DNA of 64,000 bases from Nitrospirota bacterium (GTDB lineage Bacteria; Nitrospirota; Thermodesulfovibrionia; Thermodesulfovibrionales; UBA6898): NCBI GenBank assembly GCA_016214855.1, contig JACRMT010000004.1:744001-808000 (forward strand), in the 5' to 3' direction. The notes under the pieces are model-generated. The model saw only the letters and a program-made list of their open reading frames with translations, was not told the DNA's origin and did not search any database. Positions 10,727 to 26,699 of the stretch are shown here, piece after piece. A program made the translations under genes and the position numbers. Each line of letters opens with the position of its first letter. Position 1 is the stretch's first letter.

Positions 10727-12682
10727 TCAGTCCTTCTTTTCTTCCTCTTCGTGTTTGTGCAGATGAACGTCTGCCTGTTTGTTTCTCTCGTCGATCTTTT
10801 TCTTGAGATTCTTGACCTTGTTTTTATAATCCTCAGTCAGCTGATCGGCCTCCTCATGATTTGCAACAACGTGAGGAGTAACCATGAGGATCAGTTCCTT
10901 CTTCTGCAGTTTATCAGTCGTAGTACCAAAGAGATACCCAAGGAGAGGAATCTTGCTCAGAAAAGGAACACCAGAGCGCGATTGCTCCTTCCGCTCTGTA
11001 ATGATACCACCGATGACAAGGGTATGGCCATCCTGCACAATGGCGGTAGTATTGGCTTTTCTCGTTTTAAAGCCCTGAAATGATCCGGAACCGACCTGAA
11101 TGGTCCCCCCCAATTCGCTCACTTCCTGCACTATTTTTAGTGAGACCTGTTTCTTATCATTGATATGAGGTGTTACTGTCAAGATAGTACCTGCAGATTT
11201 GTATTGTACCTGTGATGTTGTCGTATTGGCTACGGCACCAGCTGTCGCATCAGTTATGGACGTTGCAACAGGCACTTCATCAGCTATCTCTATCTTTGCC
11301 TCCTTATTGTCAAGCGCCAAAATATGAGGGCTTGCCAACACATTGACATTGCCATTGGTTGCCGCAGCACTTATCAGAACATTGAACTGTTTCGGATCAA
11401 TGATATTGGCAAAAAGTCCTCCGCTTACTACAGGCACAAATTGGGTAAGATTTGAGGTTGCTGTCCCATCTGTCTGCACCGATGTATTAATAAAAGTATT
11501 TGGATCTGCAGTATTCCCCGTGATAAAATCAAAACTATGCTTACCAATCTGATTCCGGCCTTTCAACATCCACTCCAGCCCCAACGTTGTCGAATCATCC
11601 AGAGAAATCTCTGCGATCAACACTTCGATGAGTACCTGTTTGGGCTGGACATCGATCTTCTTCAGCGTTTCAAGGAGTATCAGATAGGCGCGCGGTGATG
11701 ACTTTATGATCAATGCGTTGATGTCATCATATGCCTCGATGAGCACATCACCCTCAAGTTCGGCCGTCAGTATATCAGCCTGAACCGTTGCACCGGTAGC
11801 CGGGGCGGCCGCAGTAACGGGTGTTCTGGGTCTTGTCGCTGCCGCAGGCGTCGGCTGTGCCGGTCTTGCAGGCGCAGGCGTCGAAGAAGCCCCACCCTTC
11901 TTGCCATAAAGATTCTTCAGCACTTCGCCCAGTTTCTTTGCCTCGCCATTTTCAACATGATAGATAAAGGTCTTTACAGAATCTCTTTCCGTTGAAGTGA
12001 TGTCAATCGCCTCGAGCAGTTTCAGGAGTTTCATGATGCCTGAGGGCAATGCCGTTACGATCAGCATATTTGATGGCTCATAAACGATAATATCCGTGCC
12101 TTTGGGCATAAGGTTCCGGACAAGATTGGCGACATCATTTGCCTTCACATACTCAAGCGGTATCTGCTGCGTCACAAAACTCGAATCTTTGGGCAGCCCG
12201 GGCTTCTTCCCCATCTGGATCGGGACCGGCTGCTGTTTTGCGGTATCAATCGGAACAATGCGGTAAAAACTTCCTTCCTTTACCGCGGTGAAGCCATTAA
12301 ACTCCAGGACGGTCTGAAAGGTAGCGAAGAGTTCGCTGACCGGTATCTTGTTATGCGACTGGATCGTGATCTTTCCCGAGACACCGGGAGCAAGGATGTA
12401 ATTGATCTTCAGCATGTCGGAGATCGTCGAGACAACCGTTTCAATATCAGCATTCTCGAAGTTGAGCATGATATATTGTTCATCCGGCTTCTTCTCCGCA
12501 ACGGTCTTTTCCGCTTTCTTCAGTTCAGCCTTTGCGTCTGCCGGCGGCGGGGCCACAGGGAGCTTCACTTCCTCCGCTTTCGGAGGACCGGCAATGGGCT
12601 CATCAGGCTGTACCGTCTGCTTTGCTCCGCAGGCACTGATAAAGACAATAATGAGACATAAACTTAATAACTTCAGGTTCAT
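10727..12682 (-). CDS. gspD: Type II secretion system secretin GspD
   Basis: Outer-membrane secretin forming the exit channel of the type II system. N-terminal lipoprotein signal with lipobox-like ISAC (Cys18), an N0/N1 region with NADIETVVSTISDMLKINYI (about 75-110), further N domains, an Ala/Pro/Thr-rich linker at about 270-305, then the secretin core (about 340-610: VLIEVLIAEISL, VPVATSITDAT, the GVPFLSKIPLLGYLFG signature) and a Lys-rich C-terminal tail. 651 aa is typical. Last gene of the gsp run, overlapping gspC by 4 bp. The lipobox suggests self-piloting without a separate GspS. Confidence 0.94.
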   Translation of the reverse strand: MNLKLLSLCLIIVFISACGAKQTVQPDEPIAGPPKAEEVKLPVAPPPADAKAELKKAEKTVAEKKPDEQYIMLNFENADIETVVSTISDMLKINYILAPGVSGKITIQSHNKIPVSELFATFQTVLEFNGFTAVKEGSFYRIVPIDTAKQQPVPIQMGKKPGLPKDSSFVTQQIPLEYVKANDVANLVRNLMPKGTDIIVYEPSNMLIVTALPSGIMKLLKLLEAIDITSTERDSVKTFIYHVENGEAKKLGEVLKNLYGKKGGASSTPAPARPAQPTPAAATRPRTPVTAAAPATGATVQADILTAELEGDVLIEAYDDINALIIKSSPRAYLILLETLKKIDVQPKQVLIEVLIAEISLDDSTTLGLEWMLKGRNQIGKHSFDFITGNTADPNTFINTSVQTDGTATSNLTQFVPVVSGGLFANIIDPKQFNVLISAAATNGNVNVLASPHILALDNKEAKIEIADEVPVATSITDATAGAVANTTTSQVQYKSAGTILTVTPHINDKKQVSLKIVQEVSELGGTIQVGSGSFQGFKTRKANTTAIVQDGHTLVIGGIITERKEQSRSGVPFLSKIPLLGYLFGTTTDKLQKKELILMVTPHVVANHEEADQLTEDYKNKVKNLKKKIDERNKQADVHLHKHEEEEKKD

Positions 12683-13251
12683 TTTCCTGTCCTCGGTTTA
12701 CTGGATAGAGTCTTCACTTTTTCAATGGTAAGCGTAATCGTCTCACCCAACCATTTTAACACAACTGCTTTTTCTGATATATCGGAAACCTCTATGTCCT
12801 CCACTTTGTCTCCCTTGCGCAGCTGTGTTGTCTTTGCCTGATTTATATCGACATAGGCAACGTAGTCACCGAACGTGTCGAGGATGATGCCTTTAAGGGC
12901 AAGCTCCGGCCTCTTTGGCGGCGGAGGGGGAGGAGCCTCTACGCGCACCGGTTTCGGCTCCTTGTACGTCCGCAGGGTGTTAAAAAGATTTTTCTCATAG
13001 ATGATCTTGTCCCACGCCGCTGCGTACTTTGCCTTTATCGGCTCGGACTCCTTGATCTTCGCCTTTTTCACCAACTGGTCAGACAGGGGATTATAGAGCA
13101 CTGCGCTGACCGTAAACTTCCAGCTGACAACAAGGAACAGCGATCCGACAATGATAAGCATAGCTATTTTCCGTATCATGCTGATAAGTCCATAGGTAAA
13201 CTTACACCCTTCAAAAATCTCCCCCCACTCCTCTTTGTCAAAGAGGGGCAT
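12679..13251 (-). CDS. gspC: GspC-like inner-membrane protein of the type II secretion system
   Basis: Links the inner-membrane platform to the secretin. One membrane segment (about residues 30-50, IAMLIIVGSLFLVVSW), a Pro-rich linker (EAPPPPPPKRPE) and an HR domain (LALKGIILDTFGDYVAYVDI, then GDKVEDIEVSDI). No PDZ domain, so it is a short form. The start is unusual: ATG 13251 with GGAGG 5 nt upstream lies inside a dispersed palindromic repeat (13213-13291), which also encodes the first ~14 residues (MPLFDKEEWGEIFEG). ATG 13179 (MIRKIAM) would give the ancestral short form but has a poor ribosome-binding site; an upstream start at 13269 is also open. Confidence 0.85.
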   Translation of the reverse strand: MPLFDKEEWGEIFEGCKFTYGLISMIRKIAMLIIVGSLFLVVSWKFTVSAVLYNPLSDQLVKKAKIKESEPIKAKYAAAWDKIIYEKNLFNTLRTYKEPKPVRVEAPPPPPPKRPELALKGIILDTFGDYVAYVDINQAKTTQLRKGDKVEDIEVSDISEKAVVLKWLGETITLTIEKVKTLSSKPRTGK

Positions 13252-13291
13252 ATTACCTCCCCTTGACAAAGGGAGGATAGGAGGGATTTTT
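13213..13291. repeat. Dispersed palindromic repeat, copy A (over gspC start)
   Basis: About 79 bp with AAATC...GGGATTT ends and two internal hairpins (CCTCTTTG...CAAAGAGG and CTCCCCTTG...CAAAGGGAG). It matches 25802-25879 along its whole length with scattered differences. It supplies the ribosome-binding site, start codon and first codons of gspC. Confidence 0.85.
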
Positions 13292-13321
13292 CAATCAATC
13301 GTTTCATGCTCCTGAACTCCT

Positions 13322-13852
13322 TCATAATTTACCCAAACCCGATATCTGCATCTTAAACCGCAGCTCTCTGGGGTTCTGTATGTTTGTCACATTAACAGAC
13401 AGTTTCTCTACCTTCAGCAGCATGGTGTGCTTCTCGACCTCATTCAAAAAATCGCCTATCTGCTTGATCGTTCCGCTTCCCTCAAAATAGACCGGGATGA
13501 AGAAAAAGCCCTTTGCCTTCACGGTATTGAGCGGTCTGATGGTCTGCAGGTTCAGGCCTGCATTCTGCGTGAGTTCTGCAAGTTCCTTCTGAACACGTGC
13601 GGCTGCAAGAAATTCAGATGATTCCATCACCAGTTTCTTTTCAACAGCCTTCATTTCTTCCCCGGCCGTCCTGATCTCGGCATTGGTGATGGACGATCCC
13701 TCCAGATAGGTTTCGTATTTCTGCAAGGTGGCCGATTTGACCTGAATCTCATCGCGCATGGTTTCGGATTTTGGAGCCACCACGTATGTCTGAAAAAGAA
13801 GCAGCGTCATAACCAGCGCCGCGGCAAGCAGAATATATTTTTTTCTGTTCAT
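13322..13852 (-). CDS. gspM: GspM/PilO-like inner-membrane protein
   Basis: A 176-residue bitopic protein: membrane segment at residues 5-25 (YILLAAALVMTLLLFQTYVV), a coiled coil, then a ferredoxin-like PilO/GspM domain (VKAKGFFFIPVYFEGSGTIK, then FLNEVEKHTMLLKVEKLSV). It would partner GspL in the inner-membrane platform, and overlaps the gspL stop by 4 bp, which supports coupled synthesis. Similarity to PilO is at least as strong as to classical GspM; the assignment to type II secretion rests on its neighbours. Confidence 0.8.
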   Translation of the reverse strand: MNRKKYILLAAALVMTLLLFQTYVVAPKSETMRDEIQVKSATLQKYETYLEGSSITNAEIRTAGEEMKAVEKKLVMESSEFLAAARVQKELAELTQNAGLNLQTIRPLNTVKAKGFFFIPVYFEGSGTIKQIGDFLNEVEKHTMLLKVEKLSVNVTNIQNPRELRFKMQISGLGKL

Positions 13853-15117
13853 GGCTCCCTGACCTCAAACTTGAGAGAAAACCGCTCTTCGCCGTCGCGT
13901 GATAAGATCGGGGCAGCAAAAGCGATATTTTTAAAAAGGTTCGATTTGTCTAATGCCGTGACCAGGTCCGAGGTCTTTCTCGAAAAACCCTCTATCTCCA
14001 CAAGCCCCTTTTCATCGATGACGAGATTGATGATCCATGCGTTATCGGGAACTGCCACTGTCAGGTCCTTCAACACTTTGATCGCCATATTGGAACGGGC
14101 CTGAAAGGTGAGGAGAGTCTTCCTGTCATCCTGAAGCGCTTCAAGCTTCTTTCGGGCTTCAATGACGCCAGAGGCCTGGCTCTTGATAGTTTCGATCCGC
14201 GACTCGACCCTGCGGAGCGCGCGGGCATCCTTGGCATAGGCAACAAAGCCTGTCAGCAAATACAGACAGAGAGCTGCTGTTGCCAGACCTCCGATGATAT
14301 ACGGATAAAGATCTTTTTTCTCCCTGATCAACTCCTGCGGGATGAATTCAAGATTCAGCCGTGTTCTCTGGACAAAGGAAAAGATCAGCGCATTCGGCAC
14401 CGTAATCTGTGATTTCGTCATGGCAAAACGCTCAGCAACCAGTTGATCAACCGTCCCCGAACAGAAGACCTTTCCAGGATAGGATTTTCTAAAGGTCTCG
14501 AGGGTTTCGGCAAGGTCAGTGCCTCCAGAAATTCTCTTCATCGCATGAGGAAGGGAATCCTCAATGCCTGTCATTTCATAGCCGCTGTCCGTCGCCAGAA
14601 TAAAGATACCCTTCATATTCTTCTCCCCGCTGACCCCGAGCATGCTGTTCAGCACATCCATTACCCGGCAGCGGACAGAAAGGACTTCCAGTCCGGCAGC
14701 AATGATCAGTTTCACGACTGCACTGACCGTTTCTTTCTTTATCGAGAAGACAAGGGTTTTCATGCCCTTGTCTGTCCTGATCATGAGGAAATCAAAGAGG
14801 TATTCATCAACAGCAAGCGGCAGGTGTTTTTCAAGTTCAAAGAGCAGAGCCCTTCTCATATCCTCCCTGCCCATAACCGGCATATCAAGGAGCTTGCAGG
14901 TGAAAAGCTGCAGCGAAAGCCCTACAACGACACCTGAAGGGTCATAGGCACTTTTCCACTTCTGAAGCGCTTCTGAAAGCGCATTATTCCCCTCCGCCCT
15001 GTCCGCAGGAAGACTGATACCCTCCGAACGCAGATAGGTAATGCGCTTCAGCTGCCTGTCGGCAACAGACATGCGTATATATTTACTGTCTATGTCAAGT
15101 CCTAACAGTCTCGACAC
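13849..15117 (-). CDS. gspL: GspL-like protein (PilM/PilN-type actin-fold and membrane protein)
   Basis: A 422-residue inner-membrane platform protein that couples the GspE ATPase to the periplasmic part. It has an N-terminal actin-like cytoplasmic domain (LGLDIDSKYIRMSVA, then GVVVGLSLQLFTCKLLDMP), one membrane segment at about residues 262-282 (YIIGGLATAALCLYLLTGFV), a coiled coil and a PilN/GspL periplasmic domain (VPDNAWIINLVIDEKGLVEI). It starts 23 bp inside the end of gspK and its stop overlaps the gspM start, so translation is coupled on both sides. Confidence 0.85.
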   Translation of the reverse strand: MSRLLGLDIDSKYIRMSVADRQLKRITYLRSEGISLPADRAEGNNALSEALQKWKSAYDPSGVVVGLSLQLFTCKLLDMPVMGREDMRRALLFELEKHLPLAVDEYLFDFLMIRTDKGMKTLVFSIKKETVSAVVKLIIAAGLEVLSVRCRVMDVLNSMLGVSGEKNMKGIFILATDSGYEMTGIEDSLPHAMKRISGGTDLAETLETFRKSYPGKVFCSGTVDQLVAERFAMTKSQITVPNALIFSFVQRTRLNLEFIPQELIREKKDLYPYIIGGLATAALCLYLLTGFVAYAKDARALRRVESRIETIKSQASGVIEARKKLEALQDDRKTLLTFQARSNMAIKVLKDLTVAVPDNAWIINLVIDEKGLVEIEGFSRKTSDLVTALDKSNLFKNIAFAAPILSRDGEERFSLKFEVREP

Positions 15118-22896: not shown

Positions 22897-24207
22897 TTGG
22901 AACTATTTAAGACCGAAAAGAAAGCCGCTCCGCTCGCCTGGAGGATGCAACCTGAGGATTTCGAGGATTTTCTCGGCCAGTCGCATCTGCTTGACAGGAA
23001 CAAGCCGCTCAGACGCCTCATAGAGGATGACAAGATCGTCTCGGTCATCTTTTACGGCCCCCCCGGCACCGGAAAGACCGCACTTGCTCACATCATTGCA
23101 CGTAAAACAAAGGCCCGCTTCATCTCTATCAATGCCGTAACAGCCGGGATCAAGGACATCAGGGAGGCAGTTGACTCATCTCGCGGACAGCGGGCGATCC
23201 TCTTTGTGGACGAGATCCACAGATTCAACAAAACACAGCAGGATGCGCTGCTCCCCCATGTCGAGAAGGGAGAGATCATCCTGGTCGGTGCGTCGACGCA
23301 GAATCCCTTCTTCTCGCTTGTTCCTGCCCTTTCTTCGCGCTCGCTTATCTTCCCGTTCAGACACCTACCGGCAGAAGAGCTGAAAAAGCTGCTCTACCGC
23401 GCGATCTCTGACAAAAAGGGGCTCGGGGAATATGAGATATCGCTTCAGGAAGAGGCGGCTGAATATATCGCCTCGGTAAGTGAAGGTGATGCGCGAAAGT
23501 CACTGAATATCCTTGAACTATCATTCCTTTCATCGCTTGGAAGCGGAACCGGTCCTGAAGATTTTTCGGGAGACGGAGCCATACACCGGGCGGCCATAAC
23601 CCTGGCGCAGGTGAAAGAGGTCACGCAGAACAGATCGATTTATTACGATGAAGACGAACATTACAACACCATTTCAGCCTTTATCAAGAGTATGCGCGGC
23701 TCTGACCCGGATGCCACGGTCTACTGGATGGCAAAGATGCTGGAGGCGGGCGAAGATCCGCTCTTCATTGCCCGCAGGATCGTTATCTGTGCAGCTGAAG
23801 ACGTCGGCAATGCAGATCCTCAGGCTCTTGTCGTGGCAGTCTCGGCGCTTCAGGCCTTCGAAAAGATAGGACTTCCTGAGGGAAGGATCCCTCTTTCCAT
23901 GGCAGCCCTGTATGTTGCGACCGCACCCAAGAGCAATGCAGCGTATGTTGCGATCGACAGTGCTATCGAGGCAGTCAGAAATGAACCTGCCCGGAACGTG
24001 CCGGATCACCTCAGGGACACCAGTTACAAAAGCGCAAAAAAGCTCGGTGCAGGAGCCGGGTATCTGTATCCCCACAGTTTTGCAGGACATTATGTGAAGC
24101 AGGCTTATCTGCCTGATCACAAAACCTTTTACACCCCCTCTTCCGAGGGCCTCGAAAAAATAATACAGGAAAGAATGAAAAAAAGGAGGGAAACACCAGA
24201 TGGATAG
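22897..24207 (+). CDS. rarA: Replication-associated recombination protein A (AAA+ ATPase)
   Basis: A 436-residue MgsA/RarA ATPase acting at stalled replication forks. Walker [13 protein letters not shown], Walker [12 protein letters not shown], sensor regions ([12 protein letters not shown]), and the C-terminal tetramerisation part ([34 protein letters not shown]). The start is TTG 22897: the N-terminal [19 protein letters not shown] matches the usual RarA start, and ATG 22945 would remove it. A perfect palindrome covers the ribosome-binding site, and the rny gene overlaps its end by 8 bp. Confidence 0.95.
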
Positions 24208-25762
24208 CATGTTCTATGTTGGTATTGCCATCGCAATCGGCATTACTGTTGGTCTCGTGATGAGCCTTGTGTATAAGAGCACGCTGAAAGGTCAGAAGGC
24301 TACCATTGATGTTGACAAGGGCAAGACCATTGAGATCGCACAGAAAGAAGCTGAGCACATCAAAAAAGAAGCGACCCTGGAGGCAAAGGATATTGTCTAC
24401 CAGGCCAAGAGTGACGCAGAAAAGGAGCTCAGGGAGCGCCGCAATGAAGTTAACCAGCTGGAAAAGCGCCTTCGGCAGAAGGAGGAGACGCTTGACCGCA
24501 AGTTTGACCAGAACGAGAAGCGCGATCAGGAGCTGAACAAACGCGAACGTGACTGCACGGCAAAAGAACGTTCGGTGCAGGAAAAAGAGACCAGGTATAC
24601 GGAGATCCTCAGGGAACAGACAGCGATACTCGAAAAGCTCTCAGGCATCTCTTCTGAGGAGGCAAAACAGGAGATACTCAGACGGACCGAGGAAGAAGCA
24701 CGCCTGGAGGTCGGAAAACTTATCAAGAAGATCGAGGACGAAGCAAAGGAAACCGCTGAGAAAAAGGCAAAAGAGGTGATCGGCTTTGCAGTGCAGCGGT
24801 ATGCAAGCGACTATGTTGCTGATGCGACCGTCAGCGCAGTGAGTCTGCCGAGCGATGAGATGAAGGGCCGGATCATCGGCCGTGAAGGAAGGAACATCAG
24901 GGCTCTTGAGGCAGCAACAGGCGTTGACCTCATTGTTGACGACACGCCGGAAATGGTGACCCTTTCGGGTTTTGACCCGGTTCGGCGCGAGATCGCGAAG
25001 CAGTCGCTTGAGCGTCTGATCGCAGACGGCAGGATCCATCCTACGAGGATCGAGGAAGTTGTCGAGAAGGTAAAGAAAGAGGTTGATGCGAACATCAGGG
25101 AAGAAGGAGAAAAGGCTGTCTTTGACCTCGGCCTTTCCGGCATCCACCCGGAGCTTATCAAGACCCTCGGCAGACTGAAATACCGGACCTCTTACGGCCA
25201 GAACATCCTCCAGCACTCACGGGAGGTGGCGTATCTCGCAGGCATGATGGCTGCAGAGATAGGCTCAGATCAGAAGCTCGCCAAGCGCGCAGGCCTTCTG
25301 CATGACCTTGGCAAGGCGATAGACCATGATGTTGAAGGCTCTCATCAGGAGATCGGATCGAACCTTGCGAAGAAATTCGGCGAAAACTACAAGGTGGTAA
25401 ATGCCATATTCGCCCACCATGGAGATGCCGACCCGCTGACCGTTGAGGCGGCGCTGGTTGCAGCTGCAGATGCGCTCTCAGCAGCCCGGCCGGGCGTGAG
25501 GCGTGAAAGCATTGAACATTACCTGAAGCGTCTTGAGGACCTTGAGAAACTGGCACTCTCGTTCAAGGGCGTGGAAAAGTGCTATGCGATCCAGGCCGGA
25601 AGAGAGATCAGGATCATTGTCAAGCCTGAAGAGGTGAACGATGAACTGTCTGCCCTTATCGCCCGTGACCTCTCGAAAAAGATCGAGGCTGAGATGTCCT
25701 ATCCCGGACAGATCAAGGTGACGGTCATACGAGAATCAAGACATGTGGAATATGCAAAATAG
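24200..25762 (+). CDS. rny: Ribonuclease Y
   Basis: Membrane-anchored endoribonuclease initiating mRNA decay. N-terminal membrane helix ([20 protein letters not shown], about 4-24), a long charged coiled coil (30-200), KH domain ([19 protein letters not shown], about 215-280) and an HD domain ([17 protein letters not shown], metal ligands; later FAHHGDADP). 520 aa is typical. Its start lies 8 bp inside rarA behind AAAAGGAGG, so it is translationally coupled. The ymdB-like gene follows, as in other RNase Y bacteria. Confidence 0.96.
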
Positions 25763-25801: not shown

Positions 25802-25879
25802 CAAATCTCCCCTCGCCCCTCTTTGCCAAAGAGGGGTATTATTCCTCCCTTTGGCAAAGGGAGGTTAGGAGGGATTTGT
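25802..25879. repeat. Dispersed palindromic repeat, copy B (rny-ymdB spacer)
   Basis: About 78 bp with AAATC and GATTT ends and two internal hairpins (CCCCTCTTTG...CAAAGAGGGG and CCTCCCTTTG...CAAAGGGAGG). Same family and same internal order as 13213-13291. It has no open frame of its own and lies wholly between genes here. Confidence 0.85.
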
Positions 25880-25916: not shown

Positions 25917-26699
25917 ATGAAGGTTTTATTTATCGGTGATATTGTCGGCAAGGTCGGGAGACAGGCAGTGAGCGCCTGTCTCCCCGGCCTTGTTGATAAA
26001 CAGAACATTGACCTGGTGATCGCCAATGGCGAAAATGTCGCTGCCGGTTTCGGCCTCACTGAGAGCCTTGTAAAGGACCTGTTCAGGATGGGCGTACACG
26101 TAATAACCACCGGCAACCATGTCTGGGACAAGAAAGATTTCGTCGGATATATTTCAAAAGAGAACCGCGTAATCCGGCCGGCCAATTTTGCACCGGGTGT
26201 CCCCGGGTACGGCAGCGTTATATACAGTCTGCCTGACAACACCAAGGTCGGCGTATTGAACCTCTCCGGCAGAATATTCATGACACCCGTAGACTGTCCG
26301 TTTCGTACTGCCCAGACAGAAATTGAGACCCTGCAGAAGGACGCAAAGATCATCATCGTTGACCTCCATGCAGAAGCTACGTCAGAAAAGGTTGCCTTCG
26401 GGTACTTCGTTGACGGCAAAGTGAGCGCTGTCATAGGAACACACACGCATGTGCAGACAGCTGACGAAAAGATACTCGCAAACGGCACTGCCTATATTAC
26501 GGATGTTGGAATGACCGGACCTGCTTATTCGGTAATCGGCATTGATGTTGACCAGATCATCAGGAGATTTTTAACCGGCATGCCTGACAGGTTCGAGACA
26601 GCCCAGGGCCAGGCAATTCTATCAGCGGTAGTTATTGATATTGACAAGGATTCAGGAAAGGCAAACGGAATAGAGAGGATACAACTTACCTATCCGTAG
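25917..26699 (+). CDS. ymdB: YmdB-like metallophosphoesterase
   Basis: A 260-residue calcineurin-like phosphoesterase of the YmdB family (TIGR00282 type), which hydrolyses 2',3'-cyclic nucleotides and was linked to RNase Y in Bacillus. Metal-binding residues are visible in FIGDIVGKVGR, IANGENVAAGFGL, TTGNHVWDKKD, IVDLHAEATSEK and IGTHTHVQTADE. It follows rny after a repeat-containing 154-bp gap and may be expressed with it. No clear ribosome-binding site precedes the ATG. The protein is soluble with no signal peptide. Confidence 0.92.
   Translation: MKVLFIGDIVGKVGRQAVSACLPGLVDKQNIDLVIANGENVAAGFGLTESLVKDLFRMGVHVITTGNHVWDKKDFVGYISKENRVIRPANFAPGVPGYGSVIYSLPDNTKVGVLNLSGRIFMTPVDCPFRTAQTEIETLQKDAKIIIVDLHAEATSEKVAFGYFVDGKVSAVIGTHTHVQTADEKILANGTAYITDVGMTGPAYSVIGIDVDQIIRRFLTGMPDRFETAQGQAILSAVVIDIDKDSGKANGIERIQLTYP

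Follow-up and report, generated by a model that had tools for sequence, protein, structure and literature searches.

The Rickettsia palindromic elements (RPE) are short repeats that bear open reading frames (ORFs) and are found fused in frame into host genes (Ogata et al., reviewed in PMC2229807, PMC10969869). Here we describe an element that agrees with published descriptions of bacterial MITEs (PMC2229807, PMC10969869) in its size, terminal inverted repeats (TIRs), terminal TA, hairpins and ORF fusions. By analogy, it belongs to the known kind of MITEs with ORFs, and it has entered a secretion operon of a Nitrospirota bacterium between the genes gspM and gspC. The locus lies in a stretch of 64,000 nucleotides, which we refer to as the window. 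In its behaviour, the RPE appear to be the nearest analogue: they are likewise ~105–150 bp long, palindromic, bounded by terminal inverted repeats and ORF-bearing, with additional intergenic copies. This likeness to repeats of another organism is one of description and serves as an analogy only; moreover, unlike in the RPE, the verified in-frame fusions of our element sit in signal-peptide n-regions, and at gspC its ORF is unfused and spans the gap between two genes that used to overlap. ERIC/IRU, Correia/NEMIS and other TA-ended MITEs (PMC2229807) resemble it in size, TIRs, TA termini, hairpin transcripts and open frames, again by description and without a sequence match being claimed. The REP/REPIN sequences (RAYT Y1 transposases) are also palindromic, dispersed and mostly extragenic, but our element is larger, has TIRs and a TA target, and none of the three Y1_Tnp genes in the genome adjoins a copy, so that a RAYT/REP origin was dropped. 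Nothing specific on this repeat in Nitrospirota came up in the literature search, and Rfam gave no RNA family match in 12600–13900.

A further known system bears on the site of insertion. Genes that share an ATGA overlap can be coupled by termination-reinitiation (PMC6728339, PMC10666635), which is nearly abolished by gaps of ~20–38 nt, in E. coli by one of 38 nt (PMC10666635). At our locus, shared ATGA motifs occur between gspM and an ORF running through the element, hereafter the bridge ORF, and again between the bridge ORF and gspC; in contrast to the known cases, the coupling partner is an ORF carried in by a mobile repeat. The junction is made up of the following features, given in window coordinates together with a second copy of the repeat:

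13322..13852, minus strand: gspM (T2SSM_b; Pfam PF10741, E 5.9e-10), with the same C-terminus in G006 and G005
12679..13179, minus strand: gspC from the ancestral start MIRKIAM, with start and ATGA context kept in all relatives
13181..13324, minus strand: full-length MITE-like element of 144 nt, delimited by end-to-end sibling alignment, end alignment and absence from eight relatives
13213..13291, minus strand: conserved double-hairpin core of the element, from 41 own-genome matches and copy alignment
13325..13326, minus strand: target-site copy TA next to gspM (AAATTA, then the element; the left-end TA occurs in 9 of 14 well-defined copies)
13179..13180, minus strand: second target-site copy on the gspC side, CA (from TA), its A being the A of the gspC ATG (the element, then CATGATACGG, against ancestral TATGATTCGG)
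25803..25877, minus strand: the other core copy within the window, intergenic, 85% identical to 13213–13291, between ORF 24200–25762 (rny-like by inspection) and a gene at 25917

The name of gspC follows from its place in the operon, flanked by gspM and gspD, and from its GspC-like layout, which makes it an inference, as no Pfam family matched the protein.

The state before the insertion is preserved in the relatives. The insert is absent at gspC in all eight relatives' orthologues checked, including that of G006 (91% identity); within the genus, gspC was present in each of the seven other genomes searched, and the insert in none. The insertion was found in one genome only. In the relatives, gspC starts with MIR[K/R] in a 4-nt ATGA overlap with the gspM stop, and a more distant MAG (L033) has a gspM/gspC layout with the same overlap. 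The G006 junction reads GGTAAATTATGATTCGG, with gspM ending in GLGKL and the stop codon. In the window, the gspM TGA (13324–13322, minus strand) is retained precisely at the insertion edge, the C-terminus GLGKL is unaltered, and the ancestral gspC start is preserved as codon 13179, now 146 nt further from gspM. Because the sites are empty in the relatives, the insertion is derived in the window's lineage, and codon 13179 is the ancestral start of gspC. These empty sites lend good support to the proposal, made in a first-pass annotation of the window, that a mobile repeat had inserted at the gspC translation start within a secretion operon.

The same annotation had recognized 13213–13291 as a dispersed palindromic repeat, and rightly so: besides the copy in the window, the 3.3-Mb genome holds matches to it with E-values down to 2e-35, far beyond chance. 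Its bounds, however, are those of the 79-nt core, while the full unit is the 144-nt element, with which siblings match end to end; together with the 2-nt TA target duplication, it accounts for the whole 146-nt gspM–gspC spacer. With the 150-nt junction as query, full-length siblings aligned over query positions 4 to 147 or 148 (C12:6286-6430 in the window's genome, C9:213-357 and C76:11485-11629 in G005). They are present in G000, G005 and other genera, and a sample of 149 genomes of the order included 64 with related elements; most copies in the genome are intergenic. In the end alignment, the lengths of well-defined copies cluster at 142–145 nt, with TIR-like ends of the CTAAGGAGTTCATAAG and CTAATAAGTTCATAGG types; terminal inverted repeats with CTAAGGAGTTCA / CTAATAAGTTCA-type ends are clearest in L003 and the G007 copies. 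Five of the 14 well-defined copies have TA on both sides, and the gspC copy has TA on one side and CA on the other. We also considered a target duplication of 4 nt, ATGA, but TA agrees better with the other copies.

With its 144 nt (<300 bp), ~41 core copies, terminal inverted repeats and lack of a transposase gene, the element has the features expected of a bacterial MITE. It also shows a target-site duplication and empty sites, the duplication being short evidence with its 2 nt and partly decayed at gspC (TA to CA). A search with the TIR pattern retrieved mostly element copies, and no transposase partner was among them. We consider it almost certain that the element inserted as a unit at a TA, presumably by transposition.

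Several observations concern the history of the family. G006, the closest relative by its gspC, has a single weak element match, compared with ~41 in the window's genome. One element with the same flanks is common to G000 and G005 (L003 and L053), and this shared occupied site is old or exchanged. In G007, the contig ends (L055, L068, L071, L075, L079) are rich in near-identical copies with TTAATCAGTTCATAAG ends, pointing to a recent burst that fragmented the assembly. In addition, L047 and L051 have an identical small palindrome (CCCCATYCGGGGACAG) nested in the element core, and L072 has another nested stretch close to the core's end.

The insertion raises the question of how gspC is translated. 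Since gaps of ~20–38 nt suffice to nearly abolish reinitiation, a gap of 146 nt should uncouple gspC from gspM unless it is bridged. The element provides three features relevant to this point:

13176..13325, minus strand: 49-codon bridge ORF through the element (MKEFRSMKRLIEKSLLSSLCQGEVICPSLTKRSGGRFLKGVSLPMDLSA, then a stop), from translation and scored starts
13317..13322, minus strand: AAGGAG Shine-Dalgarno (SD) sequence for ATG 13307, whose estimated initiation energy is below that of every other candidate start
13249..13262, minus strand: SD GGGGAGG and ATG for a 24-residue gspC extension, present, with the SD paired

The bridge ORF meets the gspM stop at one end and the gspC start at the other, each time in an ATGA overlap. 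ATG 13325 and ATG 13307 open one common frame, MKRLIEKSLLSSLCQGEVICPSLTKRSGGRFLKGVSLPMDLSA, whose closing TGA overlaps the gspC ATG; from ATG 13307, it spans 43 codons. As the bridge ORF keeps ATGA overlaps at both ends, gspM–gspC coupling is probably preserved. We propose that the ancestral gspM/gspC junction (AAATTATGATACGG) received, at its TA, a non-autonomous MITE-like element of 144 nt, which duplicated this TA; one copy would since have turned into CA, while gspM has retained its stop and gspC its ancestral ATG at 13179. Ribosomes that finish gspM (ATGA at 13325) or load at AAGGAG (ATG 13307) would then enter the bridge ORF, and the translation of its 43–49 codons would melt the element hairpins. 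They would end at the TGA overlapping the gspC ATG and re-initiate at 13179. We hold with moderate confidence that this combination of TA insertion, retained gspC start and bridge-ORF coupling is the best explanation as a whole. Regarding its parts, most GspC is likely to start at 13179, and we lean slightly towards it doing so by way of the bridge ORF.

This weighing rests in part on initiation scores from a home-made hybridization-minus-unfolding estimate, which is crude and gives ranks, not rates. ATG 13307, with AAGGAG 9 nt upstream, has the best estimate of the candidates (−2.2 to −4.6 kcal/mol). Start 13179, taken alone, has no real SD and an estimate of +0.1 to +5.9 kcal/mol, depending on the folding window. 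At ATG 13251, the SD is paired within the element hairpin except for one base, costing ~19.6 kcal/mol to unfold and leaving a net +7.1.

The last of these starts is the one that the first-pass annotation had considered best, with the repeat supplying both the ribosome-binding site and the start codon of gspC. Its description is accurate: on the minus strand, GGGGAGG (13262–13256) precedes ATG 13251 by 4 nt, a usable SD spacing, the other copy in the window has ATA instead, and the frame is open into gspC, so that 24 cytoplasmic residues would be added before MIRKIAM. Furthermore, where the closest copies end this frame with a TGA (GAGGGGTGA), the gspC copy reads TGG, and tsaD, also in this genome, does receive a strong SD and ATG from the element. 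However, the high cost of opening the hairpin speaks against ATG 13251, AAGGAG and ATG 13307 are better placed, and neither the old start nor its ATGA context has been disrupted. GGAGG and ATG are features of the element family, found as GGAGGTATCATGCCCC in many copies, and were not acquired at gspC. The extension is absent from all relatives: among the N-termini compared, none contains MPLFDKEEW, and all begin with the ancestral motif. Lastly, it would make the n-region acidic (net −1), in contrast to n-regions fused to the element at other loci, which are at +6 to +11. We regard an extended GspC as unlikely.

Initiation at 13179 without the bridge ORF, either by long-range coupling or by weak SD-less initiation, would reduce the element to a neutral spacer or mRNA hairpin. 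The retained ATG requires nothing new in this case, and a clear SD before the gspC start is likewise missing in the relatives. These, however, depend on direct overlap, the estimate for 13179 is poor, and the hairpin-filled gap should uncouple the two genes, which makes this reading quite improbable. That the insertion damaged gspC expression, leaving an operon in decay or served by a new internal promoter, is highly improbable: an insertion into so tight an overlap is potentially costly, but the gspM, gspC and gspD frames are intact, and the gspM stop is kept exactly at the insertion edge.

Coupling through the bridge ORF does not imply that the ORF was selected for it. When siblings were placed in silico at the ancestral TA, a bridge resulted in ~10 of 82 copy/orientation combinations. 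Among the siblings, the closest three (L002, L003, L005), in the same orientation, all yielded one: their own start codon makes an ATGA with the extended frame of gspM, and a stop-free frame reaches the TA end. As these insertions show that the bridge comes built in, we rejected it as proof of selection. It is a property carried along by the element subfamily and was probably not selected at gspC. The start codon creating ATGA, the stop-free frame through the hairpins and the TA end that becomes TA-TGA could be read as parts of a self-contained coupling cassette, which would enter ATGA overlaps and signal-peptide n-regions harmlessly and be kept for that; we find this very doubtful.

Mobile repeats that give translation starts probably do occur in this genome, and tsaD exemplifies the idea better than gspC. 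There (L035:501-576 and flank), the element end contributes AGGAGG-GATTTT-ATG, so that five residues are added ahead of the MLILGIDTSCD-type start seen in the relatives; the new start scores −3.6 against +9.8 for the old one. In folP (L016), the element's GGGGAGATTTT precedes the ATG, where G005 has AAGGAGATTTT. In tsaD, folP and the pilin-like L048, the outer element end (GGGGAGATTTT or AGGAGGGATTTT) has the spacing of an SD relative to the start codon and, judging from sequence, probably acts as their ribosome-binding site.

In four envelope-protein genes, named from Pfam, the element instead lies in frame behind the ancestral start, an arrangement that, as read from the sequences, resembles the RPE. 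These in-frame copies (L012, L005, L035, L041 in G000) follow the ancestral start codon and precede the hydrophobic core of the signal peptide. The gene for an RND adaptor (HlyD_D23) matches G003 in its SD and start region and has no ATG, GTG or TTG between element and hydrophobic core; hence, translation must pass through the element, unless a rare start is used or the gene is dead. In that for an FN3 lipoprotein, the element frame (KSLLSSLCQREVSCPSLSKRGEGRF), the same as the bridge frame, is fused behind a retained ATGA start. LolA has retained CAGGAG and a GTG start, with the element in the opposite orientation, and an outer-membrane efflux protein has the same SD region and ATGAAAAGAC as G004. 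The fused n-regions are lengthened to ~42–62 residues and strongly positive. A small exported protein (L051) resembles these cases by its own sequence alone. At two of the same n-regions, relatives have a different extra stretch (RND adaptor in G005, L082; efflux protein in G004, L122), which suggests repeated, independent insertions; neither stretch had a second copy among the fetched loci.

For annotation, the case is a warning that start codons called automatically upstream of repeats like this one are unsafe, with 24 residues at stake here. The gspM–gspC junction offers a clean before-and-after case of a mobile palindromic repeat entering a tightly overlapping operon without breaking it. 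The n-region pattern, which a single genome shows in at least four genes, two of them with different extra stretches in relatives, reaches wider than gspC and suggests that signal peptides are a tolerated landing place for mobile DNA.
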